A stretch of 32,088 bases of DNA from an uncultured Rhodospirillales bacterium (GTDB lineage: Bacteria; Pseudomonadota; Alphaproteobacteria; Acetobacterales; Acetobacteraceae): positions 1 to 32,088 of the forward strand of contig CAIYSR010000173.1 of NCBI GenBank assembly GCA_903928895.1, written 5' to 3'. This document shows positions 1,787-21,234 of this stretch, one piece after another; the first letter of the stretch is position 1; the number at the start of each line of letters is the position of its first letter. Both the position numbers and the translations under genes were made by a program. The notes below the pieces were generated by a model, which saw nothing but the letters and a program-made list of their open reading frames with translations, had not been told where the DNA came from and searched no databases.

Positions 1787-1891
1787 AAGCAGGCTTTCGC
1801 AGGACGGACCACGGATGCATTTGCAAACATTGTGCAGGCGAAAGCCAGCTTAGCATTCAGCAAGAGCGCAAACCTGAGAGGGCTTGCTTAG
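1787..1891 (-). repeat. 105-bp dispersed palindromic repeat, copy 1 (3' end of shc)
   Basis: This segment matches 24762-24866 at 98 of 105 positions with no gap. It contains two adjacent stem-loops. The larger has arms AAGCAGGCTTTCGC and GCGAAAGCCAGCTT (one mismatch) around a loop holding the palindrome TTTGCAAA (minus strand). The smaller has arms GCAAACC and GGCTTGC around TGAGAG, with one position changed relative to copy 2. On the minus strand it begins with CTAAGC, and that TAA is the stop codon of shc. It resembles REP/BIME-type or MITE-like elements; it encodes nothing itself. Confidence 0.85.
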
Positions 1892-3801
1892 AACCCCCAG
1901 GCCACGCGGGTCGTGTTGCCGCGGGTCAGGTTGCGATAGCGGGCCATCGCCATCAGCGGGAAGAACAATTTGTAGCCGTGGTAGCGCAGGTAGAACACGC
2001 GCGGGAAGCCGACGGCGGTGTAGGGGGCTTCGTCCCATTCGCCGTCGGGTTTCTGGGTGGCGGCGAGCCAGGCGATGCCGCGGGCGGTGGCTGGGTGGCT
2101 GGCCTGGCCGGCGGCCATCAGGCCGAGCACGGCCCAGGCGGTCTGGCTCGGGTTGCTCCGGTGGTACTGGCCGGGGGCGGATTTGGCGTAGGTTTCGTTG
2201 TCCTCGCCCCAGCCGCCGTCCTCGCGCTGGGTGGTGGCGAGGAAGTCCGTCGCGCGGCGGATCGCGGGGTCGTCGTGCGGCAGGCCGGCGGCGTTGAGGG
2301 CGCAGAGCACGGACCAGGTGCCGTAGATGTAGTTGGTGCCCCAGCGGCCGAACCAGGAGCCGTCCGGTTCCTGTTCGCGCCGGAGCCAGGCCAGGGCGCG
2401 GGCGATCACGGGTTCGTCGGCGGTGTGGCCGATCTGGGTGAGGAAGCTGACGCAGCGGGCGGTGACATCGGCGGTCGAGGGATCGAGCAGGGCGCCGTGG
2501 TCGGCGAAGGGGATGTGGTTGAGATACATGTGGTTGTTGTCGGCATCGAAGGCGCCCCAGCCGCCATCCCGGCACTGCATGGCGATGATCCAGGCTTCGG
2601 CGCGGGCGATGGCGTCGGCGTGGGCGGGGTCGCCTTCGCGGTGCAGCAGCATGGCGACGACGGCGGTGTCGTCGACGTCGGGGTAGTGCGGGTTCTCGTA
2701 CTGGAAGGCCCAGCCGCCGGGGATGGCGTCGGGGCGGTTCTGCTTCCAGTCGCCGACGACGTCGAGGATCTGCTTGGCCCGCAGCCAGCGGTTGGCGGCG
2801 GCGATTTCGGGGCGGGCCGGGCTGTCGGCCTCGGCCACCGCATGGCCGGCGAGGCCGGTGTCCCAGACCGGCGAGAGGCAGGGCTGGCAGTAGGCTCGAT
2901 CCTCCTCGACCACCAGGAGCTTCTCCACCGCCCGCCAGGCGATGGCGGCGTCGGGGTGGTCGGAGGGGTAGCCCAGGGTGTCGAACATCATCACGGTGTT
3001 GGCCATGGCCGGGTAGATGGCGCCGAGGCCGTCCTCGCCGTTGAGGCGTTCGGTGACGAAGGCGACGCACCAGGCGATGGCGCGTCGGCGGATTGCGGTG
3101 GGGAAGAAGGGTTCGGCCGCGCGCAGGACGCCGTCGAGCTGTTTGAACACGCGGCCCCAGGCGGAGCGGTAGGGGCCGCGGATCCAGTCGGTGACCTGTT
3201 CGGGGGGCGTGGTGAAGAGTTCGCGGACATGGATGTCGCGCGGGTTGCGGGCCTTCGGCTTGAGCGCCATCAACACCAGCAGCGGGGTGATCACGGTGCG
3301 CGACCAGTACGAGACCTTGTCGAGATGGAAGGGGAACCACTTGGGCAGCAGCACCAGCTCGACCGGCATGACCGGCACCGCGGCCCAGGGCACCTCGCCG
3401 TAGAGGGCGAGCTGGCAGCGGGTGAAGACATTGGTGCGGGCGGCGCCGCCGGCGGCGAGGATGGCGGCGCGGGCGCGGGCCATGTGCGGCGCGTCGGGGC
3501 TGTCGCCGATCATCTTGAGGGCGAAATAGGCTTTGACGGAGGCGGAGAGGTCGAAGGCGCCGTCGTGGAACAATGGCCAGCCGCCGTGCTCGCCCTGGAT
3601 GGCGCGCAGGTAGGTGGCGATCTTGCGTTCGATGCCGGGGTCGGGCAGGGCCAGGAAATGGCGCAGCAGGATGTATTCGGCGGGAATGGTGGCGTCGGCC
3701 TCGAGCTCGAAGACCCAGTGGCCGTCGGGCTTCTGGCGGTGCAGCAGGGCGGCGCGGGCGTCGGCGATGTGACGGTCGAGCGCGGTCGGAACGGCGGTCA
3801 T
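1888..3801 (-). CDS. shc: Squalene-hopene cyclase
   Basis: Cyclises squalene to hopene/hopanol, the committed step of hopanoid synthesis, as a monotopic inner-membrane enzyme. The 637-aa length fits the family (about 630-680). The catalytic acid motif DxDD is present as D375-V-D-D378 within NPHYPDVDDTAVV, and several QW-type repeats are visible (DGGWGAFD, DGSWFGRWG, DGGWGED, DGEWDE). The start ATG at 3801 gives MTAVPTALDRH and lies 16 bp after the hpnE stop; it is the last gene of the operon. Its TAA stop codon falls on the first bases of the 105-bp repeat. The end RVAWGF shows that the C-terminus is essentially complete, although a few residues may have been altered if the repeat inserted there. 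Confidence 0.97.
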   Translation of the reverse strand: MTAVPTALDRHIADARAALLHRQKPDGHWVFELEADATIPAEYILLRHFLALPDPGIERKIATYLRAIQGEHGGWPLFHDGAFDLSASVKAYFALKMIGDSPDAPHMARARAAILAAGGAARTNVFTRCQLALYGEVPWAAVPVMPVELVLLPKWFPFHLDKVSYWSRTVITPLLVLMALKPKARNPRDIHVRELFTTPPEQVTDWIRGPYRSAWGRVFKQLDGVLRAAEPFFPTAIRRRAIAWCVAFVTERLNGEDGLGAIYPAMANTVMMFDTLGYPSDHPDAAIAWRAVEKLLVVEEDRAYCQPCLSPVWDTGLAGHAVAEADSPARPEIAAANRWLRAKQILDVVGDWKQNRPDAIPGGWAFQYENPHYPDVDDTAVVAMLLHREGDPAHADAIARAEAWIIAMQCRDGGWGAFDADNNHMYLNHIPFADHGALLDPSTADVTARCVSFLTQIGHTADEPVIARALAWLRREQEPDGSWFGRWGTNYIYGTWSVLCALNAAGLPHDDPAIRRATDFLATTQREDGGWGEDNETYAKSAPGQYHRSNPSQTAWAVLGLMAAGQASHPATARGIAWLAATQKPDGEWDEAPYTAVGFPRVFYLRYHGYKLFFPLMAMARYRNLTRGNTTRVAWGF

Positions 3802-3817
3802 GGCTGAGTCCGTGGGG

Positions 3818-5070
3818 TCAGGGGGCGTCGCGCAAAGCTTCGGCGGCGGCGCGGCCGGACCTGATGGCACCTTCGATGGTGCCGGGCAAGCCGGTCGCGG
3901 TCCAGTCGCCGGCGAGGAAAAGATTGGCGATCGGGGTGCGGGGGGCGGGGCGGCGGGCTTCCTGGGCGGCGGTGGCGGCGAAGGTGGCACGGCGTTCCTT
4001 GACCACGCGGAATTTGGGCATCGGCGCCGGCAGATCGAGGGCGACGCGCACCTCGGGCCAGATCGCCGCTGCGAGATCGTCGGCTGAGCGGTCGACCAGG
4101 CGGTTGGCGGCGCTGATGGTGACGGAGACGATGCCAGGCTTGATGAAGATCCACTCGGCGGTGCCGCCGATCAGCCCGAGGAAGCCGGCGGCGCCGATAT
4201 CGCCGTCGGGTTTCGCATCGACCTGGAAATGCAGGTTGACGATGGCCTCGAAGGCGTGCGGCACCGGGAGCCAGGGCAGCAGGCCGGCGGCCACCGGCGC
4301 CGTGACCGCCAGCACCACCGCCTCGTCGGGCGCGATCAGGACAGGGCCGTCGGAGGTGTCGAACCCGGCGACGCGGCCGTTGGCGCGGCTCAGGGCGGTC
4401 ACCCGGCAGCCGGTGCGCAGCGTGGCGCCGCGGGCGGTCAGCCAGGTCAGCGCCGGGTCGATGAAGGTCTCGGACAGGCCGAGCTTGGGGTAGAGCGGTA
4501 TGCAGGCGCGCCCGCCCTTCATCAGGGTTTCCCTGACCACGGTGTCGAGCAGCCGGGCAAGGGCAGCATCGGGCGGGGTGTTGAGGGCGGCGACGGCGAG
4601 GGGTTCGAGCAGGCGGCGGTAGAGCTCGCTGCGGCGGTCGAGGGTGCCGCTCACGGTGGCATCGGCCGCGGCGCCGCGCAGGTTCAGCAGCTGGGCGTAT
4701 TCCATCAACCCGGTGCCGGGCACGCGGGTCTGGCGGCGGAACACCCACCACGGGATCGGGCCGGGGTCGGGGGCGACGGTCCAGCGTTCGCCGGTGGCGA
4801 TGTCGAGGAAGGGGAATATCGCCTCGGACGGGCCGCCGAGCAGGTCGCGGGCGCCGATGAGCGCCAGGTAGGCCATGGTCGCGGTGTTGCCGGACAAGAC
4901 GAGGTGGTTGCCATTGTCGATGCGGCAGCCCAGCGCCTTGTCGAAATAGGAGCGGCAGCGTCCGCCGGCGGCGGGGCCGGCCTCATGCAGGGTGACGCGA
5001 TGGCCGGCCTGGGTCAGCGCGATGGCGGCGGACAGGCCGGCCAGGCCGGCGCCGATGATGTGGACGTGGT

Positions 5071-5074
<4 letters not shown>
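3818..5074 (-). CDS. hpnE: Hydroxysqualene dehydroxylase
   Basis: FAD-dependent amine-oxidase-like enzyme that reduces hydroxysqualene to squalene, the last of the three HpnCDE steps. The protein has 418 aa. The N-terminal Rossmann FAD motif (HIIGAGLAGLSAAIAL, followed by an acidic residue and GGRCRS) is clear, and the C-terminal FAD segment FLAGDWTATGLPGTIEGA is typical. The start ATG at 5074 overlaps the hpnD stop by 4 bases (ATGA), implying translational coupling. The end is 16 bp before shc. The order D-E-shc supports hpnE over a phytoene-desaturase-type carotenoid enzyme, which has similar FAD motifs. Confidence 0.95.
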
Positions 5075-5915
<841 letters not shown>

Positions 5916-5919
<4 letters not shown>

Positions 5920-6743
5920 AGGTGCCTCAGGGCGCCGAGCAGGGCGGCGGCGATGTCGGGTTTGCGGAGTTTCACCCGTCCGGCCAGCGGGTCCTCGCCC
6001 GCGAGCCGGGCGGCGAGACGGCGGGCAAGGCCGGTGATGACGGCGCATTCCAGGCGCAGCCGACGGTCGCGCACGCGGCGCGGCAGGGCGGCGGCCTCGG
6101 CATTGAGCGCGGCGCAGCGGGCGAGCAGGTCCAGGTGGACGCGGCGCAGGCCGGGGGAGAGTTCGTGCTTGTGGAGGTCGAGCACCGAGGTGCCATGGGC
6201 CGCCATCAGGTCCCCGGGGACGTAGCAGCGATCGAGCTCCTGGAGGTCCTTGGCGCCGTCCTGGAGGTGGTTGAGGACTTGGAGCACGGTGCACAGCGCA
6301 TCCGACGGGCCCCAGGTGTCGCGGCTTTCGCCGTGCAGATCGAGCATGTAGCGGCCGACCGGCATGGCGGAATAGCGGCAGTAGTCGACCAGGGCGTCCC
6401 AGCTGGCGGTGCGGGTGGTGGTGGCGTCGCGGCGGAAGGCGATCAGCAGGTCGGTGGCGTGGACCGCGGTGACGCCGGTTTGCGCGAGGCTGGCGCGCAG
6501 GCGGGTGGCGCTGGGGGAGCCGTCCTCGCGCCGGCCGAGGAGCACGGCCTCCATGATGTCGAGCCGGGCGATCTTGTCGTCCGCCGGCAGGATGTCGCTG
6601 TCGGCGATGTCGTCGGCGTTGCGGGCGAAGGCGTAGTAGGCATGGACATGCGGGCGCAGGCGCCGGGCGATGAGGGCGGAGCCGACCGGGAAGTTCTCGT
6701 CGCCGCGATCCTTGCCCGACCAGGTTTCGACCGAGCCGTTCAC
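5916..6743 (-). CDS. hpnC: Hydroxysqualene synthase
   Basis: Converts presqualene diphosphate to hydroxysqualene. It has 275 aa and belongs to the squalene/phytoene synthase superfamily, with Asp-rich motifs FARNADDIADSD and NHLQDGAKDLQE. The N-terminus (GKDRGDENFPVGS) is the characteristic HpnC start. The ATG at 6743 overlaps the hpnB stop by 4 bases and the end overlaps hpnD by 4 bases. HpnC and HpnD are paralogues; the gene order and the ENFPVG motif distinguish them. Confidence 0.96.
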
Positions 6744-7846
6744 GCGGCACGCCCGGGGTAGGCGCGGTTCTTCCAGACCACGCCGCGGCCGCGATGGTGG
6801 TCGATGGCGGCGCCGATGGTGGCGGCGAGATAGAACAGGGCGATCAGGGGCAAGGCGAGGGTCCAGAAATACGACAGGCGGTAGCGGGCGAGGGCGGGCA
6901 GGAAGGTCCAGCTCATCAGGAACCAGGCGCCGTTGAGGCGGTAGGGGTCGAGCGCGAGGGCGACCGGCGGCATGAAGAACAGGAACAGCATGCCGAGCAC
7001 GCAGAAGGCCAGGCGCAACGGCGAATGGCTGAGCTGGACATAGGCGGAGCGGGCGATCATCCGCCAGATGTCGGCGGCCTCGGGATAGGGCCGGATCGAG
7101 CGCGCCGCGGTGGTGTGGCCGAGCCAGATCGGCGCGTGCGGCTTGACCGCCTTGGCCAGGGCGACGTCGTCGATCAGGGCGCCCTTGATCGCGGCGATGC
7201 CGCCGATGGCCGCGAGCGTTTCGCCGCGGATCAGGATGGTGCCGCCGGCGGCGGCGGCAACCGGGCTGCGGGGGTCGTTCACCCGGGAGAAGGGGTAGAG
7301 CATGGCGAAGAAATAGACGAAGGCCGGGATCAGGGCGCGCTCGGCCGGGCTGGTGCAGTTCAGCGCCACCATTTCGCTGACCATGGCGGCGCCGGTGCTT
7401 TCCATGCCGGCGACCAGGGTGCTGACATGGGTGGTGTCGTGGACGATGTCGGCGTCGGTGAGCAGCAGCAGCTCGCCGGTGGCGGCGGCGACGCCCTGGT
7501 GCACTGCCCAGAGCTTGCCGGCCCAGCCCTCGGGGCGCGGCGCGCCGGGCAGGATTGTCAGCCGGCCCAGCGGGTCCGGCACGGCGCGGGCCAGGGCGGC
7601 GGTGGCGTCGGTGCTGTTGTCGTCAACCAGGATCACCCGCAGCTTCCCGGCATAGTCCTGCGCCAGGAGGGAGGCGATCACGGGGGCGATGGTGGCGGCT
7701 TCGTCGCGCGCGGGCACGACGATGGCGAGCGCGGGGGGGGCGTGCGGGGTGGCTTGCGGCAGGCTGGGGCCGCGCTGCCAGAAATGGCCGTGCAGCAGGA
7801 ACAGCCAGACCCAGGCCAGCAGGGCGGCGACGGCGAGGACGGTCAT
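6740..7846 (-). CDS. hpnB: Hopanoid-associated glycosyltransferase
   Basis: A 368-aa family 2 glycosyltransferase anchored in the inner membrane. An N-terminal membrane segment (VLAVAALLAWVWLFLLHG) precedes the GT2 domain with IVVPARDEAATI, VDDNSTDAT and the metal-binding LTDADI motif. Two or three C-terminal membrane segments follow (AFCVLGMLFLFFMPPVALAL and WTLALPLIALFYLAATIG). It is assigned by synteny to the hopanoid glycosyltransferases; its precise sugar donor and acceptor are not established by sequence. The start ATG at 7846 overlaps the hpnA stop by 4 bases, and the end overlaps hpnC by 4 bases. Confidence 0.94.
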   Translation of the reverse strand: MTVLAVAALLAWVWLFLLHGHFWQRGPSLPQATPHAPPALAIVVPARDEAATIAPVIASLLAQDYAGKLRVILVDDNSTDATAALARAVPDPLGRLTILPGAPRPEGWAGKLWAVHQGVAAATGELLLLTDADIVHDTTHVSTLVAGMESTGAAMVSEMVALNCTSPAERALIPAFVYFFAMLYPFSRVNDPRSPVAAAAGGTILIRGETLAAIGGIAAIKGALIDDVALAKAVKPHAPIWLGHTTAARSIRPYPEAADIWRMIARSAYVQLSHSPLRLAFCVLGMLFLFFMPPVALALDPYRLNGAWFLMSWTFLPALARYRLSYFWTLALPLIALFYLAATIGAAIDHHRGRGVVWKNRAYPGRAA

Positions 7847-8838
7847 GCCGCGCTCCGGTTGGCGCGGAACCAGGCGACGGCATCCTCCACCGCCGCGCGG
7901 GCGGGGCGGGCGTGGAAGCCGAGTTCGGCGATGGCCTTGGCCGAGGAGAAGAACATCTTCTTGCGGGCCATGCGCAGATGGTCGCGCGTCACCAGCGGTT
8001 CGATCCCGGTGAGGTGGGCCAGCCCCTCGCAGGCCAGGGCCACCGGCCAGAGCGCGGGGATCGGCAGACGGATGCGCGGCGGCGACCGGCCGGCGACCTC
8101 GGCGACGAGGGCGAGCAGGGCGCCGAGGCCGAGATTTTCGCCGCCCATGATGTAGCTTTCGCCGATCCGGCCGCGCTCCAGCGCGAGGGCGTGGCCCTCG
8201 GCGACGTCATCGACATGGACGACGCACAGGCCGGTGTCGATATAGGCCGGCATGCGCCCGGCGGCGGCGTCGGCGATCATGCGCCCGGTGGGCGTGGGCT
8301 TGATGTCGCGCGGGCCGATCGGGGCGGCGGGATTGACGATGACCGCCGGCAGCCCCTCCTCGTGCACGAGGCGGCGGACGGCGCTCTCGGCCTCGTATTT
8401 GGAACGCTTGTAGATGCCGGCGATGGCGGCGACGTTGACCGGGGTGGTCTCGTCGGCCGGCTCGTCGGTGCCGGTGAGGCCGAGGGCGGCGACCGAGCTG
8501 CAATAGACCGCGCGCTCGACCCCGGCGGCGATGGCGGCGCGCATCAGGGCGACGGTGCCGGCGACATTGGCACGCAGCATGGTCTCGGGGTCCGGCACCC
8601 AGATGCGGTAGTCGGCCGCGACATGGACGAGGTGGCGGCATCCCTGCACGGCGGCGGCGAGGGAGGCGGGGTCGTTGAGGTCGCCCTCGGCCAGTTCGGC
8701 GTCGAGGCCGGCCAGATTGCCCCGATTGCTGCCGCGCCGGACCAACAGGCGCAGGCGATGGCCGCGCGCCGCGAGCGTGCGGGCGACGGCCGAGCCGACG
8801 AAGCCGGTCGCGCCGGTGAGGAGGGTGAGGTCGGCCAT
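7843..8838 (-). CDS. hpnA: Hopanoid-associated sugar epimerase
   Basis: A 331-aa extended short-chain dehydrogenase/reductase of the NAD-dependent epimerase type and probably the first gene of the hopanoid operon. The dinucleotide motif GATGFVGSAVARTLAARG is at the N-terminus. The catalytic triad is visible as SSVAALG (Ser) and the Y-x-x-x-K in YKRSKYEAE. HpnA proteins are hopanoid-associated and thought to modify the sugar-like side chain, but the reaction is uncertain. The start ATG at 8838 gives MADLTLLTGATG, the usual beginning. 58 bp separate it from the phosphodiesterase gene upstream, so the two could be co-transcribed. Confidence 0.95.
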   Translation of the reverse strand: MADLTLLTGATGFVGSAVARTLAARGHRLRLLVRRGSNRGNLAGLDAELAEGDLNDPASLAAAVQGCRHLVHVAADYRIWVPDPETMLRANVAGTVALMRAAIAAGVERAVYCSSVAALGLTGTDEPADETTPVNVAAIAGIYKRSKYEAESAVRRLVHEEGLPAVIVNPAAPIGPRDIKPTPTGRMIADAAAGRMPAYIDTGLCVVHVDDVAEGHALALERGRIGESYIMGGENLGLGALLALVAEVAGRSPPRIRLPIPALWPVALACEGLAHLTGIEPLVTRDHLRMARKKMFFSSAKAIAELGFHARPARAAVEDAVAWFRANRSAA

Positions 8839-8896
8839 GGCTCCGTGTATGCGCGCGGGCGCGGGAAAGGCAAGATCGATACGCGGCGCGGGCCGG

Positions 8897-10300
8897 TCAG
8901 CCGCGGAATCCCTCGTCGAGATAGATGTGGCGGCCGAGGCGGGTGCGGGCGAGACGCTGGCGGTAGGTGCCGTTGGCGGCTTCCCAGCTTTCGGCGGCGG
9001 GGCGGGCCTCGGGCTCGTGTCCGTCATGGAGGGCCTCGGCCAGGATGCGGCCGTCCATCGCCTCGGCGCCGGGCAGGCCGAGCAGGGTGAGGACGGTGGG
9101 GGCGAGGTCGCACAGCCCCGCCGGGGTTTCGGCGAGCAGGCCGCGCTGGATGCGGGCGCCGCCGAGCATCAGCACGGTGTGGAGTTCGGCGCCGAGCAGG
9201 CCGCCATGGGTGCCGCCGCCGCGCGGGAGGTCCCCGTCGTAGAGGGTGGTGCCGGGCAGGCCGCGTTCGGAGCGGGCGGCACTGGTGCGCAGCGTGAACA
9301 CCACCTGGGCGGCGCGCGCGTGGTTGGCGAGCACGGCCGAGCTAGGCAGCACGCCGAGCGGGAGATCGATCCCATCGGTGGCGAAGACGGAGCCCACCCA
9401 GTCCTGCCGGGTGAGCCAGTCGGCGGCGGCGGCGATGGTCTCGCCCCCGGCATTGGACCAGGCGAGGCCGCAGCTGGAGCCCGGCATCAGCGTGGCGCCC
9501 TCGGCCGGGGAGCGGGCGAGGTGGGGGGCGATGGCGAGGTGGCCGGAGATGGTGGCGTGGCCGTGATCGGAGGCGACCGCGATGGTCAGCGCGTCGCGCC
9601 AGGGGCCGGCTTGCCAGTCCGCCACGAGACGGCCGAAGGCGGCATCGGCGGCGCGCAACGCGTCGAGCTGGGCGGGGCTGCCGAGGCCCTGGTAGTGGCC
9701 GGAGCTATCGGGTTCGCAGAGCCACAGGATCGACAGGTCGGGCGGCTCGGGGAGGATATGGGTGCGGTAGGCCTCGGCGAGCCAGACCGCGCGCTCGGCC
9801 GGCGCGGCCGGGGGCGGGGAGAGCCGGGCGAGGAGGTCGCGGCCGCGGGCGGAGCAGAATTCGGGGCCGTGGACGGACAGCGTGAGCTGGCCCAGCGCGT
9901 CGGCCTCGGGATTGAGGACGTAGGTCTGCCCGGTGGTGCCGCTGCTCAGGATGGCGACGTCGCGCCCGGCGCCGTGCAGCAGGCGGGCGAGGGTGGGAGC
10001 GTCGAGCAGCGGGGCGCCGGTGTCCTGCTCGACCGCCTTGAGCAGGTTCATCTGGCCGGTGTCGACGCTGCGTCGGGCGTCGAGCGGGTGGGGGATGCGG
10101 TTGGCGACCAGGCCATGGCGGCGCGGCAGGCAGCCGGTGGTGACGGAAGCGGAGCAGACCCGGGTTTCGGAGGGGAACACCGAGCGCGCGCGCAGGAAGC
10201 GGGTGCCGGCGGCGGCGAAGGCCACGAGGTTCGGGGTGGTGTCGGGGCCCACCATGTCGGGGCGCAGGCCGTCGAGGACGACGAGAAGGAACTTGCTCAT
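8897..10300 (-). CDS. Alkaline-phosphatase-superfamily phosphodiesterase / nucleotide pyrophosphatase-like
   Basis: A 467-aa metal-dependent hydrolase of the type I phosphodiesterase/nucleotide pyrophosphatase group. The first metal Asp is in LVVLDGLRPDM; the nucleophile Thr is in FPSETRVCSASVTTG, followed by PRRHGL; further metal ligands are in DSSGHYQG, SDHGHATI and GGTHGG. No signal peptide is seen, so a cytoplasmic location is likely, unlike many secreted relatives. The start ATG at 10300 (MSKFLLVVLDG) puts the catalytic Asp next to the N-terminus as usual for the family; no good Shine-Dalgarno sequence precedes it. It is 58 bp upstream of hpnA and may be the first gene of that transcript. 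The substrate is unknown. Confidence 0.85.
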   Translation of the reverse strand: MSKFLLVVLDGLRPDMVGPDTTPNLVAFAAAGTRFLRARSVFPSETRVCSASVTTGCLPRRHGLVANRIPHPLDARRSVDTGQMNLLKAVEQDTGAPLLDAPTLARLLHGAGRDVAILSSGTTGQTYVLNPEADALGQLTLSVHGPEFCSARGRDLLARLSPPPAAPAERAVWLAEAYRTHILPEPPDLSILWLCEPDSSGHYQGLGSPAQLDALRAADAAFGRLVADWQAGPWRDALTIAVASDHGHATISGHLAIAPHLARSPAEGATLMPGSSCGLAWSNAGGETIAAAADWLTRQDWVGSVFATDGIDLPLGVLPSSAVLANHARAAQVVFTLRTSAARSERGLPGTTLYDGDLPRGGGTHGGLLGAELHTVLMLGGARIQRGLLAETPAGLCDLAPTVLTLLGLPGAEAMDGRILAEALHDGHEPEARPAAESWEAANGTYRQRLARTRLGRHIYLDEGFRG

Positions 10301-10380
10301 GAAAGGGGCTCTTAGACGGTTTTGCGCGCGGCGTGCAGTGACGCTTGGGTGAATCGGGGGGAGCGTGCGAGGGATGGCGG
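10301..10380. promoter_or_regulatory. Divergent intergenic region between phosphodiesterase/hpn operon and the Ehr-like operon
   Basis: These 80 bp separate two divergent gene sets and must hold at least one promoter for each unless transcripts start further away. GAGGGA at about 10369-10374 is a plausible ribosome binding site for the HyfB-like gene. No convincing sigma-70 hexamers or operator palindrome could be picked out by eye. Confidence 0.4.
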
Positions 10381-11805
10381 ATGATGGGTTCCGCAGCACC
10401 TCCGGGGTCTGGCTCGCTTGCTACCGTGCTCGCGTCGCTGCTGGCGGCGGTGGGTGTGGTGCTGTGGCTGCTGCTGGGGGCGGTGCCGCTGGGGAGCACG
10501 GGCCTGGGCTATGGGCTCGACCGGGTCTCGGGATTTTTCCTGTTGTGGTGGCTGGTGGAGCAGGCGGGGCGCGCGGCGCGCGGGGCGTGGCGGGGCATCC
10601 CCGGGGGGATGATGGTATTTGCGGCGATGGACGGCATGGGGCTGCTGGCCGGGCTGGCGCTGGTGGCCCTATGGGAGGAGGGGCAACGGCGGCGGGCGGG
10701 GCTGGCGGTGATCCTGACCCTGGTGGCGCTGGCGCTGCTGGGCGGCGGGTCGTTCGAGGCGATGCGGGATGTCGGTGGCGATGCGGCGCTGGCGCCGGTG
10801 GCGGTGGCGGTGGCGGTGCTGCTGGGGGGGCCGCTCGGGCTTTATGTGATGACACGGGTGCTGCTCGACCTCGCCGGCGCGCTGCCGCAATCGGCGGGGG
10901 AGACTGCGTTGCTGCTGGGCGGGCTGGCGGCCGGGTTTGGCGGCTGGTGGGCCTGGCGCGGGCAACGCCTGGCAGGGGTGGCGGACGGGCTGCGCTGGAT
11001 GCTGGCCGGGTTTGCGGCGATGGGTGCGGGCGTGGCGATCGCCGGGCAGGCAATTGATTTCGTCGGGCCGGCGGCGCTCGGCACGGGGGCGGTTTGGCTG
11101 GCGGCGGCGGTGGCGGCGGTGTGCGTGCCGGTGCTGGAGCTGGTGGGCAGCGGAGCGTCGGCGGGCGGCCTGCGCCGCGCGAGGATCGGCGGACTCGGCG
11201 GGCTCATGGCCTGTGCCGGGCTGGCGTTGGTACCGCCGGGGCCGGGGTTTGCGGTGCTGTGGCAGGTGCTGCGGGCGTTGCAGAGCTTGCCGGTGCCGCC
11301 GCTGGTGGGCGCGGTCGCGGCGTCCGGTGCCTGTGCGGCGGCGGGGTTCGCGGCGGCGGCGATGCTGCGGCTGCTGCGGGTCGGGTTCGGCGCGGCGGAG
11401 GGGACGGAGGCCTCGGCGCTGGTGCGCGCAACGATGGCGGGCCTGGGTGGGCTCGCGCTGGGGGTGGGGGTGGTGCCGGGGGCGGTGATCGCGCTGGCCG
11501 GCGGCGAGTCGGAGATCTTCTATGCCCCGGCGGCGCTGGCGGCGGGGGTGGCGGGGCTTGGGGTGTTGACGCATGTGCTGGCGCGGCGGCTGGGCAGCGG
11601 GGGCTATCGGGTGATCGTGCTGCCGCCGCCGCCGCCGCCCGCGTTGCCGGGGCTGGCGACGGGCCGGGCGTTGCGGCTTGGGGTGCACTGGCGGGCGCGG
11701 GCGCGCCGGTGGGCGGCAGGGCTCGATCCGCTGGCCGTACCGGCGGTGGCCGGGGGCGTGCTGGCCGGGCTTGCCGGCATGCTGCTGCTGCGGGCGTTCG
11801 GGTGA
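10381..11805 (+). CDS. HyfB/NuoN-like antiporter-type membrane subunit of an Ehr-like complex, degenerate
   Basis: A 474-aa very hydrophobic protein, probably with 12-14 membrane segments, related to the proton-pumping subunits of group 4 hydrogenases and complex I (HyfB/HycC; NuoL, M, N). Support comes from its position as first gene before HyfC-, HyfE-, HyfG- and HyfI-like genes and a weak family signature around residues 145-170 (LGGPLGLYVMTRVLLDL, aligning with K-x-G-x-Y-x-x-x-R-x-L-L). Family members are longer (HyfB about 670 aa). The protein contains no lysine, so none of the conserved pumping lysines can be present; the usual Lys is P151. The first acidic site may be D84 in AAMDGMGLLAG. 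The ATG at 10381 follows GAGGGA; ATG 10384 or TTG 10345 are alternatives. The stop overlaps the next start by 4 bases. Confidence 0.7.
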   Translation: MMGSAAPPGSGSLATVLASLLAAVGVVLWLLLGAVPLGSTGLGYGLDRVSGFFLLWWLVEQAGRAARGAWRGIPGGMMVFAAMDGMGLLAGLALVALWEEGQRRRAGLAVILTLVALALLGGGSFEAMRDVGGDAALAPVAVAVAVLLGGPLGLYVMTRVLLDLAGALPQSAGETALLLGGLAAGFGGWWAWRGQRLAGVADGLRWMLAGFAAMGAGVAIAGQAIDFVGPAALGTGAVWLAAAVAAVCVPVLELVGSGASAGGLRRARIGGLGGLMACAGLALVPPGPGFAVLWQVLRALQSLPVPPLVGAVAASGACAAAGFAAAAMLRLLRVGFGAAEGTEASALVRATMAGLGGLALGVGVVPGAVIALAGGESEIFYAPAALAAGVAGLGVLTHVLARRLGSGGYRVIVLPPPPPPALPGLATGRALRLGVHWRARARRWAAGLDPLAVPAVAGGVLAGLAGMLLLRAFG

Positions 11806-12581
11806 GCCCGGTGCTGCTGATCGGCGTGCTGGTGGCGCAGGGGCTGCTGATGCCGGTGCTGGCGGTGCTGCTGGCTGGGTTGGAGGGATGGTTCGCGGCG
11901 CGGCTCGCCGGCGTGCCGCCACCGCCGCTGCTGCTGCCCTGGCGCGCGGTGCGTGGCGGGTTCGGGCGGCAGAAAGTACGCCGCGAGGGGGCCTCGGTGC
12001 TGACCGCCGGTGGGCCGGCGATGATCTTCGCGGTGACCTGGGCGGCGGCCTGTGCGGTGCCGGTGGCGGGGGCTGGCGGCGATGCGCTGGCGGTGGCGGG
12101 ATTGCTGATGCTGGCGCGCGTGCTGGCGACGGGCGGGGAGGACCGGGTGGCGCTGGTGGCGGAGCCGATGCTGCTGCTGGCACTGCTGGTGCGCGGCCTG
12201 CCCGATGGCGGGGCGGCGGGTCCGATCGGGGTGGCGGCGCTCGCGGCGGCGGTGCTGGTGCTGACCGGGCGGGGCGAGTTCAACACCGAGGCGTCCGGTG
12301 GCGATCTTGCTTTGCTGCGTTTGGCGGCGTTTCTGCGGCGACTGGTGTTGTTCGCGCTGCTGGCGGGGCAGGTGGTGCCAGATCCGGGCGAGGGGTTCGA
12401 GCGGCGGCTGGTGGCGGTGGCGGCCACGGCGGGGGTGGTGCTGGTGCTGGCCGGTGCGTCGGTGCTGGCGCGGACGGCGTGGGCGCCGCAACGGCCGGGG
12501 CGGCGGCGTGAGGGGCTGATCGCCGGCGTCGTGCTGGCGGTGCTGGCGGTCTTGGTCGGGCTGCTGGAGGCGGGATCGTGA
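11802..12581 (+). CDS. HyfC/NuoH-like membrane subunit of an Ehr-like complex, shortened
   Basis: A 259-aa hydrophobic protein with about 6-8 membrane segments. HyfC/HycD (NuoH-type) subunits have about 310 aa and anchor the hydrophilic arm beside the quinone cavity. Recognisable relics are LLLPWRAVRGGF near residue 45 (family QPYRDLxKL), VALVAEPMLLLALL with A120-E-P122, and GGDLALLRLAAFLRRLVLFALLA after residue 166. Between E159 and D168 only a short FNTEASGG remains where the family carries a conserved loop of about 25 more residues (pattern PxDxPxTHxELTMIHE). The start is GTG at 11802, inside the 4-base overlap GTGA with the upstream stop; another GTGA overlap leads to the next gene. Only one Lys is present. 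Confidence 0.7.
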   Translation: MSPVLLIGVLVAQGLLMPVLAVLLAGLEGWFAARLAGVPPPPLLLPWRAVRGGFGRQKVRREGASVLTAGGPAMIFAVTWAAACAVPVAGAGGDALAVAGLLMLARVLATGGEDRVALVAEPMLLLALLVRGLPDGGAAGPIGVAALAAAVLVLTGRGEFNTEASGGDLALLRLAAFLRRLVLFALLAGQVVPDPGEGFERRLVAVAATAGVVLVLAGASVLARTAWAPQRPGRRREGLIAGVVLAVLAVLVGLLEAGS

Positions 12582-13204
12582 GCGGCGGGCTGATCGCGGT
12601 GGCGTCGGGGTGGCTGGCGGTGCTGGCGGTGGCGCCGCGTGATCGTGGGTTGGCGTTGCGGCTGGTGTGGCCGGCGCTGCTGGGGGCGGCGCTGCTGGCA
12701 TTCGGCGAGGCGCTGGCGTTTCGCGGGGCGGCGCTGGCCGAGCCGGTGCGGGCGGTGGGCATGGCGGCGGCGGCGGCCGCGGGGCCGCTTGCGCTGGGCC
12801 AGGCGGTGGCGCGGCGGGAGGCCGGGCTGTTGAACGGGGTGGTGGTGCCGGTGGCGGCATTCGGGCTGGCGATGGAGGGTGAGACCCTGCTGGTGCCGGG
12901 GGCGTTGGCGGTGCTGGCGGCGGGGGTGGGGATCGCGATCGGCGGGGCCGGCTGGGTGGCGCTGGCCGCGCTCGGCGTGGCGGCGGTGGGCGGGGCGCTC
13001 GGGCAGCCCGGCATGGGGACCCTGGCTGGGGCGACGCTGGTCGTGGGGGAGGCATCGGCCATTGCGTGGCCCCGGTTCTCACGCGGCGCCGGGGTGCTGT
13101 TCGCCACCATTGCGCTGTTGCCGGTGCTGGCGGTGGCGCCGGGGTGGGTCCTGGCCGCGGTGGCGAGCGGGTTGGGGCTGTTGGCCTGGCGGGGGCTCCG
13201 GTGA
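12578..13204 (+). CDS. HyfE-like small membrane subunit of an Ehr-like complex
   Basis: A 208-aa hydrophobic protein with about six membrane segments. HyfE (about 216 aa) is an extra membrane subunit with distant NuoK-like character. The assignment rests on size, topology and position between HyfC- and HyfG-like genes; sequence motifs are weak. It starts at GTG 12578 in a GTGA overlap with the upstream gene and ends in a GTGA overlap with the large-subunit gene. In typical hyf-type clusters an antiporter-like hyfF follows; here it is absent and the large subunit comes directly. Confidence 0.6.
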   Translation: MSGGLIAVASGWLAVLAVAPRDRGLALRLVWPALLGAALLAFGEALAFRGAALAEPVRAVGMAAAAAAGPLALGQAVARREAGLLNGVVVPVAAFGLAMEGETLLVPGALAVLAAGVGIAIGGAGWVALAALGVAAVGGALGQPGMGTLAGATLVVGEASAIAWPRFSRGAGVLFATIALLPVLAVAPGWVLAAVASGLGLLAWRGLR

Positions 13205-14400
13205 GCGATCCGTTTGCCGGCGCCTTCGCCATGCCCTGCGCCGGGGCGGCGCGCTATTTGCTCAACGATGAGGGCTGGCGGGCCATGGCGGCGGCGCCTG
13301 GGCTGCGCTTCGTGGCGATGTGGGCCGACGAAAGTGCGGTGATCGCGCTGCTGCGCGATGCGGCCGGCGCGAAGCTGATGGCCACCGTGGCGGTGGAGCA
13401 GGGGTTCTTCCCCGGAGTCTCGCCGTGGCGGCCGGAGGCGGCGGAGTTCGAGCGCATGATCCGCGACCTGTGGGGCTACAACGCGGTCGGCGGCATCGAC
13501 GGCCGGCCGCTGCTCGACTTCGGCCAGTGGCGCCTGGCGCATCCGCTCGGGCGCCCGGTGGCGCCCTTTGCCGCGCCCGAGCCGGCCACCTCCGGTTTCG
13601 CCCACAAGGGCACGCTCGCGCTGATGCGGGGCAAGCCCCCGCGCGTGGCTGCCCGCTTCGCCGCCCGGGTCGACGGCGGGGCCACGGTGGCCCATTCGAT
13701 CGCCTTCGCCCGTGCGGCGGAGGCGGCGGGGCGGAGCCGGGTGCCGCCGCGGGCTGAGCAACTGCGCGAAATGATGATGCGGCTCGAGGCGGTCGGCGGC
13801 GCCTTGGAATGCATCGGCCGGGTGGCCGTGGCCGCCGAGGCGGCGCTGCTGGGCGGGCGGGTTGCGGTGCTGCGCGAGGCGGTGGCGCGCACGGCGGCGG
13901 CCGCGTTCGGGCACCGGTTGATGATGGATGCGGTGGTGCCGGGCGGCGTGGTGGCGGATTTGCTGGCCGACGGCCCCGGCGCCCTGCTGTGGCTGCGCCG
14001 CAGCGTGGCCGCGGCCGACCTGCCGGCGCTGTTGGAAGCCTCGCTCGGACGTCGCCTGCGCGATCTGCCCGCGGTCGGCGCACGGATGGCGCTGGCGCTG
14101 GAGACCGTTGCGGCGGGGCTGGAGGGGCTGGGCATGTTGGTGGAGCAGCTGGAGGATGGCCCGGTGATCCAGGCCGCGATGGCGGTGGCCGGCGAGGGGA
14201 TCGGCGAGGCGACTGGCCCGTCCGGCGACATCCTGCACTGGCTGCGCCTAGAAGGTGGGCAGATCGCCGGGGTGTTCATGCTCGATCCAGGCTGGGTGCA
14301 GGCCGGCGCCGCGGCGGCCGAGGCGGCAGCGGCGGACGCGAGCGACGCGGAGATCGTGCTGGCCGCGCACGGCATACTGGCCTCGGGGATGGAATTGTGA
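13201..14400 (+). CDS. HyfG/NuoCD-like large subunit without Ni-binding cysteines (Ehr-type)
   Basis: A 399-aa soluble subunit fusing a NuoC-like domain (about 1-115, with EFERMIRDLWGYNAVGGIDGRPLLDFGQW) and a NuoD/hydrogenase-large-subunit domain (about 120-399). Family signatures include AHKGTLALMRG, ATVAHSIAFARAAEAAG, VPPRAEQLREMMMRLE, FGHRLMMDAVVPGGV and a GDILHWLRLE segment. The Ni ligand motif RxCGxC is RVDGGA (156-161) and the C-terminal DPCxxC is DPGWVQ (362-367). The whole protein has only two cysteines (C13, C204), so no NiFe site is possible. The strand-loop-strand normally before HKG (GPxHxG...EPGHFRF) is reduced to about APEPATSGFAHKG, which removes the usual quinone-pocket His. 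The start is GTG 13201, in a GTGA overlap; the end overlaps the small-subunit gene by 4 bases. Confidence 0.85.
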   Translation: MSDPFAGAFAMPCAGAARYLLNDEGWRAMAAAPGLRFVAMWADESAVIALLRDAAGAKLMATVAVEQGFFPGVSPWRPEAAEFERMIRDLWGYNAVGGIDGRPLLDFGQWRLAHPLGRPVAPFAAPEPATSGFAHKGTLALMRGKPPRVAARFAARVDGGATVAHSIAFARAAEAAGRSRVPPRAEQLREMMMRLEAVGGALECIGRVAVAAEAALLGGRVAVLREAVARTAAAAFGHRLMMDAVVPGGVVADLLADGPGALLWLRRSVAAADLPALLEASLGRRLRDLPAVGARMALALETVAAGLEGLGMLVEQLEDGPVIQAAMAVAGEGIGEATGPSGDILHWLRLEGGQIAGVFMLDPGWVQAGAAAAEAAAADASDAEIVLAAHGILASGMEL

Positions 14401-14843
14401 GCGCGTTGTGGCGGGCGCTGTGGCGCAATCTCGTGGCCCGGCATCCGGCCGGCCCGGCGGGACGGCGTGAGCGGGCGCTGCTGCATCGGGATTGCGGCAG
14501 TTGCAATGGCTGCGAGATCGAGCTGCGGTTGGCCCTGTCGGCCGCGCATGACGCGACCCGGCGCGGGTTGACCCTGGTCGCGGTGCCGCAGCACGCCGAT
14601 TTCCTGCTGGTGACGGGGCCGGTAACCCATCATTCCCAGGCCGGGCTCGGCGCCGCCTGGGACGCGATGCCCGATCCGCGGCTGGTGGTGGCAGTGGGCG
14701 ATTGCGCGGTCGATGGCGGGGTGTTTCGCGGGAGCTACGCGGTGGCCGGCGGCGCCGGGAGCACGCTGCCGGTGGATTTCGCCATCCGCGGCTGCCCGCC
14801 GACGGCGCGGCAGATCCTTGATGCGCTGGGGGAGGCGGGATGA
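14397..14843 (+). CDS. HyfI/NuoB-like [4Fe-4S] small subunit
   Basis: A 148-aa protein closely resembling HyfI/HycG/NuoB. The cluster ligands are all visible: C36 and C39 in CGSCNGCEIE, C103 in VGDCAVDGG and C133 in RGCPPTARQI. HADFLLVTGPVT and GSYAVAGG are also typical. An additional cysteine, C33, precedes the first ligand. In complex I and group 4 hydrogenases this subunit carries the terminal cluster (N2-like) next to the large subunit and membrane arm. Here it is the only subunit of the set that looks fully conserved. The start is GTG at 14397 in a GTGA overlap; the stop overlaps the hexosaminidase ATG by 4 bases. Confidence 0.92.
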   Translation: MSALWRALWRNLVARHPAGPAGRRERALLHRDCGSCNGCEIELRLALSAAHDATRRGLTLVAVPQHADFLLVTGPVTHHSQAGLGAAWDAMPDPRLVVAVGDCAVDGGVFRGSYAVAGGAGSTLPVDFAIRGCPPTARQILDALGEAG

Positions 14844-16660
14844 CGCTGCGGCTGGAGCAGGCCTGGACCGGACAATGGCATTTTGGGCTGGTCAACGAGG
14901 GTGCGGCCGCGCTGGCGGGGTTCACCTTGTGCTGGAACGGCCATTGCAAGGTCGACCCGGCGGCCGGGATCGAGCATGCGCGGCTGGTCCGCCGGGTCTC
15001 GAACTTCACCGAGGTGGCCCCGCCGGAGGGGTTTGTGCTGCGCCCGGGGGCGGCGTGGCGCTTCGTCATCGGCGGAGTGAATGTCCCGTTGCGGCATTGG
15101 ACCGAGGCGGCGCGGGCGGCCTACGTCGTGCTGCCCGGCGGCGCGACCATGGACGTCACGGTCGGGCTCTGCGGAGGGGGTGAGGCCGGGGAGCCGATCC
15201 TCGGGGCGGTGGACCTCGGCGAGGGGCGGATCGAGCAGGGGCTCGCGCTGGTGCCCTGGCCAGCGCATGTGGCGGTGGCGGGCAGCCGGGCGGTGCCGGA
15301 CGGGTTCGTCCTGCCGGACGCGGCCGCGGATTTTATCGACCTGTTCCAGCGGTTGTTTCACGGCGAAGCCTTCGCCGACCCCGCCGGCCCGGTGCTGCGC
15401 CGGGCGGTGCGCTCGGGTCCCGGCTACAGTTTGGGTTTCGGCGCGGAACTGACGATCGCGGCGGCGGATGCGGAGGGTTTTTTCCAGGGCCTGGTCACGC
15501 TCGGGCAGGTCCTGCGCGCGGCCCGGCACGACCCGCGCTGCCGCTTCCCCGCCAGCGGCGAGATCGCCGACGCCCCGCGCTTCGACTGGCGTGGCCTGCA
15601 TCTGGATGTGGCCCGGCAATTCTACGCGATGGCGGAACTCGAGCATCTGCTCGCGGTGATGGCCTGGCTCAAGCTCAACCGCTTCCATCTTCACCTCACC
15701 GACGACGAGGCCTGGCGCTTCGAGGTCAAGGCCTATCCCGCGCTGACCGACATCGGTGCCTGGCGCGGCCATGGATTGCCGATCCCGCCGCTGCTCGGCT
15801 CCGGCGCGGCGGCGCGTGGCGGGTTCTACACCCAGGACGATCTGCGCCGCCTGGTGGCGCTGGCGGCGGGCTGGGGGATCGAGATCATCCCCGAAATCGA
15901 CGTCCCCGGCCACTGCTTCGCAGCCCTTGCCGCGCTGCCGGGGCTGCGCGACGCCGGGGAGACCGGCATTTGCTGGTCGGTCCAGGCGTTCCCCGACAAC
16001 GCGCTCAACCCCGCGGTGCCGGCGGTGATGGAGTTCGTGGAGCTTGTGTTCGATGAGGTGCTCGACGTGTTTCCCGGGCGCTTCATCCATGTCGGCGGCG
16101 ACGAGGTGCCGGTGGAGGCGTGGGCGAGCTCGCCGCTGGCGGCGGGGCGCGATGCCGCCGCGTTGCAGGCCAGCTTGCTGCGCCACCTCCACGCCCGGCT
16201 GCGCCGCGCCGGACGGATCACGGCCGCCTGGGAAGAGGCGGCCCCCGGAATCGGACCCGATGCGGCGGTGCTGATGGCGTGGCAGGACCATGCGGCGGCG
16301 GTGCGGCTCGCCGCCGAGGGCTACAACGTGATCGTCGCGCTGGCACAGGTCTGGTATCTCAACATGGCGCTGGCGCCGGACTGGTGGGAACCGGGCGCCT
16401 CCTGGGCCGGATATTCTCCGGTGGCGGCGGCCTATGGCTTCGAGCCGGGCACCGGATTCGCCGACCCGGCGCGGCTGGCCGGCGTGCAGGCCTGCATCTG
16501 GAGCGAGCAGATGGCCGACCGGCGCGTGTTCGCCCGTCTTGTCTTCCCGCGCCTCGCGGCGGTGGCGGAGGCGGGCTGGACCGCACCGGGAGCGAAGGAG
16601 TTTGCCCGTTTCGCCGCTGCTGCGCGGCTGCTGCCGGTGTGGCCGGAGGGTGGGGGGTGA
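14840..16660 (+). CDS. Glycoside hydrolase family 20 beta-N-acetylhexosaminidase
   Basis: A 606-aa exo-acting hexosaminidase, cleaving terminal GlcNAc or GalNAc by substrate-assisted catalysis. An N-terminal beta region (about 1-140) and a GH20b-like domain (about 150-245) precede the catalytic TIM barrel, which begins at RFDWRGLHLDVARQF and includes LKLNRFHLHLTDDEAWR, IPEIDVPGHC and the signature HVGGDE with the catalytic pair D421-E422. WYLNMA and the C-terminal WSEQM also fit. No signal peptide is visible, so it is probably cytoplasmic, unlike many family members, and may recycle murein or glycan fragments. The ATG at 14840 overlaps the small-subunit stop (ATGA), tying it to the Ehr-like operon. 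It converges with the next gene with a 7-bp gap and no terminator. Confidence 0.93.
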   Translation: MTLRLEQAWTGQWHFGLVNEGAAALAGFTLCWNGHCKVDPAAGIEHARLVRRVSNFTEVAPPEGFVLRPGAAWRFVIGGVNVPLRHWTEAARAAYVVLPGGATMDVTVGLCGGGEAGEPILGAVDLGEGRIEQGLALVPWPAHVAVAGSRAVPDGFVLPDAAADFIDLFQRLFHGEAFADPAGPVLRRAVRSGPGYSLGFGAELTIAAADAEGFFQGLVTLGQVLRAARHDPRCRFPASGEIADAPRFDWRGLHLDVARQFYAMAELEHLLAVMAWLKLNRFHLHLTDDEAWRFEVKAYPALTDIGAWRGHGLPIPPLLGSGAAARGGFYTQDDLRRLVALAAGWGIEIIPEIDVPGHCFAALAALPGLRDAGETGICWSVQAFPDNALNPAVPAVMEFVELVFDEVLDVFPGRFIHVGGDEVPVEAWASSPLAAGRDAAALQASLLRHLHARLRRAGRITAAWEEAAPGIGPDAAVLMAWQDHAAAVRLAAEGYNVIVALAQVWYLNMALAPDWWEPGASWAGYSPVAAAYGFEPGTGFADPARLAGVQACIWSEQMADRRVFARLVFPRLAAVAEAGWTAPGAKEFARFAAAARLLPVWPEGGG

Positions 16661-20394: not shown

Positions 20395-21234
20395 CTAGCC
20401 GCCCCGCGGGCGGACGCCAAACGAATTCTTCAGGATCAGCGCACGCGCAATCCCGCTCAGATCGTGGCGCAGGTCGGGCGCGGGGAATCCGGCCGCCTGG
20501 GCCAGCGCGCCGACATCGGCGGACTGGCCGATGCCAAGCTCCAGCACCGCGACGCCGCCCGGCGCCAGCAGCGCGGGCAGCCGGGCGAGGATGGTGCGAT
20601 AGGCGTCGAGCCCATCGGCCCCGCCATCGAGCGCTGACCCTGGCTCGTGGCACGCGACTTCCTGCATCAAGGCGGCGATATCGGCCGAGGGGATGTAGGG
20701 CGGGTTAGAGAGGACGAGGTCGAACACGCCGTCGATCGCACCGGCCCAATGCCCGACGAGGAAGGCCGCGCGGGAGTGAAGCCCGTTGCGCCGCGCGTTG
20801 CGGGCGGCCAAGGCCGCGGCGGCGGGGACAACGTCGATCCCGAGGCCCCAGGCCTGCGGGAATTCGGACAATGTCGCGAGCAGGAGGCAGCCCGTGCCGG
20901 TGCCAAGGTCAAGAATGCGGCCCGGCGCGGTGCAACTGGCCAGCGCCGCTTCGATGAGGGTTTCCGAGTCGGGTCGTGGGATCAGCGTGGCGGGCGAGAC
21001 CTCCAAATCCAGCGTCCAGAACCCCTGGTGCCCCAGGATCAGCGCCATCGGCTCATGCGCCAGGCGGCGGGCCAGCAGCGGCGCGAGCGTCGCCGGGTCG
21101 GGTTCGCGGGACAGGGCGATGAGGTCGGAATGGGAGACGCCGAGCGCATGGGCCACCAGCAGGCGGGCCTCGAAGCCAGGGTTCTCGAACCGTGCCGCGC
21201 GTAACGCTTCCGTCGTGGCGCCGAGCGCGCTCAC
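20395..21234 (-). CDS. prmC: Peptide chain release factor N5-glutamine methyltransferase
   Basis: Methylates the GGQ glutamine of release factors RF1/RF2 using S-adenosylmethionine. A 279-aa class I methyltransferase with an N-terminal helical domain, the SAM motif [16 protein letters not shown] and the catalytic NPPY in [14 protein letters not shown]. The preceding gene on the strand is its substrate, prfA; the ATG at 21234 overlaps the prfA stop by 4 bases. Confidence 0.97.

Follow-up and report, generated by a model that had tools for sequence, protein, structure and literature searches.

A reduced Hyq operon of Acetobacteraceae that retains the ligands of an N2-type iron-sulfur cluster

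The hyqBCEFGI operon has been described in Azorhizobium caulinodans (PMC2650096, PMC3357923), where HyqG lacks both Cys-X-X-Cys pairs and HyqI comprises four cysteines for an N2-type cluster (PMC3357923). Group-4-like complexes without Ni/Fe ligands are named Ehr, for energy-converting hydrogenase-related (PMC6349859). We analysed five genes at positions 10381 to 14843 of a 32,088-nucleotide stretch of DNA from an uncultured Rhodospirillales bacterium of the family Acetobacteraceae; this whole stretch, hereafter the window, is contig C173 of the 5.57 Mb genome G000. Judged by sequence comparison, the operon represents a heavily stripped descendant of the Hyq complex (hyqBCEFGI, Ehr-type, group-4-hydrogenase-like), and it may be kept as a redox module with a single [4Fe-4S] cluster.

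The operon shares with the Hyq system of A. caulinodans (hyqRBCEFGI) the order B-C-(E)-G-I, a NuoC/D-fused HyqG, the Cys-X-X-Cys, Cys, Cys pattern of HyqI and the absence of the Ni-binding CxxC pairs (PMC3357923), but it lacks HyqF, a recognisable HyqE, the three HyqG cysteines, the quinone-cavity elements and the antiporter residues. With regard to Ehr complexes, the likeness lies in a group-4-like large subunit without Ni cysteines (PMC6349859); however, these complexes are suspected of charge translocation via antiporter-like subunits, and the corresponding residues are lost in the window operon. The window HyqI finds its best match in subunit 7 of formate hydrogenlyase (FHL), followed by Mbh and complex I chains, and a 32-row Hyq profile including the window HyqG best matches FHL subunit 5. 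In contrast to E. coli FHL/Hyf and to complex I, the window operon exhibits no Ni site, no ferredoxin-like subunits, no NADH module and no pump residues. Searches of the open-access literature, to which they were confined, yielded no account of a Hyq/Ehr complex that is degenerate, pumpless or cavity-less.

Subunits of the five-gene operon

The five open frames all lie on the plus strand and are joined by successive 4-base overlaps at 11802, 12578, 13201 and 14397, as a sequence-only reading of the window had noted. In the relatives, the stop codon allows such a start/stop overlap (ATGA or GTGA) at all ten B/C, C/X and G/I junctions. Above its cut-offs, Pfam recognises only the fourth and fifth genes of the operon. 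The fourth (13201-14400) encodes a reduced HyqG/HyfG-like large subunit of 399 amino acids (aa), made up of a NuoC-like and a NuoD-like part (PF00374, 2e-7), and the fifth (14397-14843) a HyqI/HyfI/NuoB-like small subunit of 148 aa (PF01058, 3e-26). The first gene (10381-11805) codes for a reduced HyqB/HyfB-like (NuoL-type antiporter-like) subunit of 474 aa, assigned by hhalign and residue tables; its start codon is a choice, TTG at 10345 being possible too. The second (11802-12581) codes for a reduced HyqC/HyfC-like (NuoH-type) subunit of 259 aa, assigned by hhalign and alignment. The profile comparisons tie B, C, G and I of the window to their canonical Hyq counterparts with hhalign probabilities of 99.6-100 (99.6%, E 6e-25, for HyqB and 99.8% for HyqC), in agreement with the HyfB-, HyfC-, HyfG- and HyfI-like identities proposed earlier.

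The HyfE-like identity proposed for the third gene (12578-13204) held for its position only. This gene encodes a hydrophobic protein of 208 aa at the HyqE position, here called X, which was assessed by profile comparison and by searches of 60 genomes. In hhalign comparisons with canonical E, F and B and with the E-F protein found in relatives, X gave probabilities under 1; as far as these profiles indicate, its resemblance to HyfE is one of position, length and hydrophobicity only. The profile model of X (A2) finds the five genomes of the same genus and none of the 55 others, and X is shortened to 157 aa in one of the five (G004). As there is no profile similarity and model A2 is confined to the genus, X was ruled out both as HyqE and as a remnant of HyqF. 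The six-gene Hyq set B-C-E-F-G-I is therefore incomplete in the window, which has five genes, no HyqF and an X that is unrecognisable as E.

When 22 E. coli Hyf/Nuo proteins were compared with the window by tblastn, convincing matches in the operon were limited to HyfI (5e-27), NuoB (5e-16) and HyfG (1e-5), and a NuoH match (E 0.002) sits in a different gene (20826-20981). No genes for NuoE, NuoF, NuoG, NuoI, HyfF or HyfH were detected in the window with these queries, the best match for the NuoI and NuoE, F, G input modules being no better than E 0.15, which bears out the earlier statement on their absence. Chance frames or a pseudogene were ruled out, as homologues are open in five genomes and selection acts on HyqG and HyqI.

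Residues lost and kept across a graded series

The loci were divided into reduced (R), intermediate (N), other degenerate (D) and canonical (C) classes on the basis of profile scores and the motifs of L043; motifs and the tree were used because bit scores failed to separate the classes. Canonical loci carry the six genes B-C-E-F-G-I (e.g. L043). Class C consists of 36 hand-picked loci, and loci with canonical scores but without the quinone-side motif (e.g. L014, L026 and L150) were assigned to class D, which comprises nine further loci with partial losses. The reduced class is the genus of the window (5 genomes), and the intermediate class, whose cultured bearers include Acidisphaera sp. S103, comprises ten named-record loci and that of G142 (L160). 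Some degenerate loci (L123, L162) stand outside the residue table, in which conservative swaps (D/E, K/R) are scored as kept at some positions.

None of the 11 scored antiporter residues (E, K, H) of HyqB is kept in the four reduced proteins, and the ten intermediate proteins keep 0-1. Canonical proteins keep 9-11 (29 of 32), three being set aside as incomplete: L047 and L079 begin at a contig end, and L059 is split over two frames. Class D, in which six of the nine loci have HyqB, keeps 0-6. The window HyqB contains no lysine and two histidines. The HyqB of L059 (Siccirubricoccus sp. G192, 162-2319) extends over two overlapping frames in an otherwise canonical operon, the result of a frameshift or of an assembly error. 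With regard to HyqC, the eight scored charges are all present in 33 of 34 canonical proteins, the remaining one being a 142-aa fragment with 6; class D keeps 3-5, the intermediate class 1-3 and the reduced class 2-3, and the alignment places a deletion at the acidic loop of the window protein.

The two CxxC pairs that contribute the Ni cysteines are missing from the window HyqG. The quinone-side histidine of HyqG is found in 36/36 canonical loci, a count that is partly circular as these loci were hand-picked after the motif was known, in 2/9 D loci and in 0/11 intermediate loci; in all five reduced proteins, the quinone-side hairpin is deleted. The three Hyq cysteines (Cys258, 491 and 497 of A. 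caulinodans) are absent (0/3) from the five reduced HyqG, from the intermediate class too, and from four of the 36 canonical loci (L061, L065, L069 and L089). In HyqI, the N-terminal segment at the position of the NuoB H1 helix is deleted in 5/5 reduced proteins; it is present in the three intermediate and the canonical rows compared, and shorter in L089.

The four HyqI cysteines of the [4Fe-4S] cluster are present in all 60 sequences, window included. Five cluster-side residues of HyqG, scored with K and R treated alike, are complete in all reduced, intermediate and D rows, and in 33 of the 36 canonical ones (4/5 in L090, L106 and L109). Alignment with FHL and complex I, together with general knowledge, suggests that these five residues adjoin the cluster. 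A large subunit without Ni ligands and a small subunit with four cluster cysteines, as first read from the letters, were thus confirmed by alignment. The same reading had placed losses in three subunits; the losses stand, and the count has to be raised, since all four recognisable subunits (B, C, G and I) plus HyqF are affected.

In the intermediate class, a single frame (514-569 aa) encodes a HyqE-HyqF fusion in L039, L040, L042, L045 and L048, and the fused E-F model spans a single frame in L160. The E part stops after 180-197 aa in L046, L050 and L057, with a separate F-like frame seen in L057; among the intermediate loci, the E-F arrangement of L041 and L052 was not resolved. L152 (G054:C58, about 6065-10378), which lies elsewhere in the family, is a four-gene operon B-C-G-I: its HyqC ends at 8610 and its HyqG match runs from about 8661, which leaves no room for E and F. 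Genome G054 also holds a canonical six-gene Hyq at another locus (L164).

In a tree of 76 HyqG sequences, obtained by a quick method with support from the Shimodaira-Hasegawa-like approximate likelihood ratio test (SH-aLRT) only and with D_L010 as a long branch, the reduced rows form one clade (100) and the intermediate rows another (98). Together with L028, which is the same G054 gene as L152, they form a clade (SH-aLRT 96) nested within the Hyq of Acetobacteraceae. Seven of the nine D rows form a clade (97) together with R, N and a single canonical row; L026 and L123, the remaining two, are placed among the canonical rows, and partial losses therefore occurred repeatedly. A separate, deeper clade (100) is made up of the canonical Hyq of the window genus. 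By alignment and tree, the reduced operon is one end of a graded Acetobacteraceae series, with an intermediate class mostly carrying a fused E-F and a four-gene operon elsewhere. The sequence-only reading was incomplete in this respect, as the Hyq family, the canonical copy in the same genomes and the place at the end of a series had gone unrecognised.

Conservation and genomic surroundings

The operon is present in all five genomes of the genus: G and I are found in five, X in five (partial in G001), and B and C in four, because the G001 contig begins within the third gene. The operons of the four relatives recur as metagenome-assembled loci L031-L034. A normal NuoD is present in all five genomes, as is a canonical HyqG, which scores 900-904 bits in four of them and is a 103-position piece at a contig end in G003. 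HypD was found in none of the five, the same search being positive in 4 of 14 named genomes used as control; the earlier remark that no hydrogenase maturation genes lie nearby thus holds for HypD and was too narrow in scope, this protein being missing from the entire genomes. A [NiFe] hydrogenase was rejected on account of the missing Ni cysteines and hypD. Of 17 genomes selected because they hold a HyqG that is degenerate to some degree, 13 have a second, higher-scoring copy as well, and the degenerate copy stands alone in G010 (98% complete), G023 (92%), G037 (82%) and G181 (72%).

Between G000 and the other genomes of the genus, the identity of the reduced genes amounts to 40-59% for B, 45-61% for C and 42-55% for X, and to 54-70% for HyqG and 71-81% for HyqI across the four relatives (69-79% for HyqI in a separate comparison). 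The canonical genes of the same genomes exhibit 71-79% (B), 84-86% (C), 81-90% (E), 68-86% (F), 76-80% (G) and 78-80% (I). On 115 common columns, HyqI reaches 71-82% in the reduced form (four genomes) and 78-81% in the canonical form (three genomes). The HyqG block 131-180 shows 77% in the reduced protein vs 81% in the canonical one, and the remaining HyqG regions 41-62% vs 71-86%. As the very high GC content at third codon positions (GC3) inflates the omega values of the NG86 method, the canonical genes of the genus served as control. Reduced and canonical values were 0.12-0.46 vs 0.18-0.39 for I, 0.21-0.44 vs 0.22-0.32 for G, 0.44-0.73 vs 0.13-0.24 for C and 0.50-0.77 vs 0.24-0.46 for B; for X they were 0.52-1.02 vs 0.13-0.35 for canonical E, X being near neutral in one pair. 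No internal stops occur in the frames compared across the genus.

The identity and omega values therefore indicate that constraint on the cluster-bearing part comes close to that in the canonical complex and is relaxed in the membrane part. HyqI and HyqG are under purifying selection near canonical strength, and the membrane genes are clearly relaxed. The retained function put forward in the sequence-only reading is thus strongly backed for HyqG and HyqI, and weakly for the membrane genes. Frameshifted or neutrally evolving orthologues, or sites merely misplaced, which that reading had named as evidence against itself, were not found for HyqG and HyqI. Its view of an Ehr-type complex that has been stripped further is supported, and since the operon is stripped yet open and conserved, its function has probably changed.

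With regard to the neighbouring genes, a type I phosphodiesterase gene (8897-10399, minus strand; PF01663, 7e-29) is divergent from hyqB, its frame as listed beginning upstream of the likely start codon. Relatives of this gene are divergent from hyqB in L115, L117 and L119 and in the canonical L038 and L044 (58-60% identity). A hopanoid cluster at 1888-9027 on the minus strand comprises genes for squalene-hopene cyclase, HpnE, an SQS_PSY protein in the HpnD position, HpnC, HpnB and HpnA. Downstream, a GH20 hexosaminidase-like gene (14840-16660, plus strand; PF00728, 2e-86) overlaps the end of hyqI by 4 bases. Neither tblastn nor gene calls found a GH20 gene at the hyqI loci of the four relatives, and GH20 was rejected as a sixth subunit for this reason. 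The downstream genes vary: sugar-nucleotide and glycosyltransferase-like genes, as judged from translations, occur there in L113, L115 and L119 but not in the window or L117.

A putative redox module and its rivals

The reading that we favour, with a probability of about 0.45, is that the operon encodes a dismantled Hyq complex kept as a membrane-anchored redox module with a single [4Fe-4S] cluster, acting as a relay or a sensor. HyqI would hold one N2-type cluster, the conserved cluster-side block of HyqG would cover it, and B, C and X would act as the membrane anchor, transmembrane counts being taken from hydropathy only. Electrons would enter and leave the HyqI cluster via a partner, or the redox state of the cluster would be sensed. 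Such a module would neither make nor use H2, would not pump protons and would be incapable of quinone reduction in the manner of complex I. Assembly of the cluster, assembly of the complex and the relay or sensor role are what we infer from the sequences.

Several observations weigh against the redox module. As a whole, the reduced HyqG is less conserved than the canonical one (54-70% vs 76-80%), and the reduced HyqI stands at 73 vs 80% in G001 and 71 vs 81% in G002, with 79 vs 78% in G004. The omega values of X and HyqB, up to 1.02 and 0.77, fit ongoing decay. No redox partner or partner gene consistently adjoining the operon was seen at the reduced loci. Finally, the four HyqI cysteines might be needed for folding only.

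The main competing explanation is a structural role alone: a dead complex would be kept solely because its proteins lend stability to the canonical Hyq or to a different respiratory complex. Its model is the deranged bc1 complex of acidophilic and acetous Acetobacteraceae, for which a role in stabilising complex I has been suggested (PMC10715153). There too, a respiratory operon of the same family was kept after its catalytic residues were lost, and the second, higher-scoring HyqG in 13 of the 17 genomes is in line with a scaffold. However, the bc1 complex of Acidocella has lost three or four Fe-S ligands (PMC10715153), whereas the Fe-S ligands are the conserved part of the reduced Hyq, which keeps all four; their conservation argues against a mere scaffold, as does G010, nearly complete and with only the degenerate copy. 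We consider this explanation doubtful.

New catalysis appears improbable. With the hairpin, the HyqI segment and the HyqC loop gone, the former quinone/Ni cavity could admit a different substrate, possibly a lipid, and a role in squalene or hopanoid chemistry, such as supplying electrons to the flavoenzyme HpnE, is conceivable. Hopanoid genes adjoin all 11 intermediate loci (hpnB-D in all, hpnA in 10, the L040 stretch stopping short of hpnA) and, in the reduced class, the operons of the window and of L115 and L117; the sequence available for L113 and L119 ends before this region. A further 44 HyqG loci spanning 10 kb or more showed none, and neither did the nine D loci, although the spans searched differ. 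However, these genes are convergent with the operon in the intermediate class and divergent from it in the reduced class, and hence do not form one transcription unit with it. As they are also found on different flanks of the operon in the two classes, shared descent suffices to account for the association. In addition, the four-gene L152 locus has no hpn genes, and the cluster is the sole evident cofactor.

No less improbable is a decaying relic, i.e. a duplicate that is losing its function, with HyqI and HyqG the slowest to go. The graded losses, the relaxed membrane genes and the truncated X of G004 would fit such a relic, but the frames of five divergent genomes show neither internal stops nor frameshifts, the omega values of HyqI and HyqG are near the canonical ones, and both the reduced class (5 rows) and the intermediate class (11 rows) form supported clades of their own. 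A working proton-pumping or quinone-reducing complex, with sites misaligned or supplied in trans (e.g. by the canonical HyqF, as the same genome has a canonical Hyq with intact residues), is highly improbable, since the hairpin and the acidic loop are deleted rather than moved, and realignment cannot supply lysines to a window HyqB that has none and only two histidines.

Beyond the redox module itself, we suggest more tentatively that the operon may represent a branch of the complex I/group 4 hydrogenase superfamily in which stepwise loss across Acetobacteraceae has freed the N2 cluster from the quinone cavity and the proton pump, the cluster now serving as a membrane-anchored relay, sensor or new catalytic centre. 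The canonical, intermediate, reduced and four-gene operons can be read as a deletion experiment made by nature on a machine resembling complex I. The series shows that the antiporter charges, the HyqC acidic loop and the quinone-side histidine are lost jointly, and that the N2-type cluster ligands and the HyqG block covering them are the part kept in all sequences compared. It adds to the deranged respiratory proteins of the same family (PMC10715153) a case in which Fe-S ligands are kept, not lost. The function of the remnant would be that of an N2 cluster without quinone or pump.

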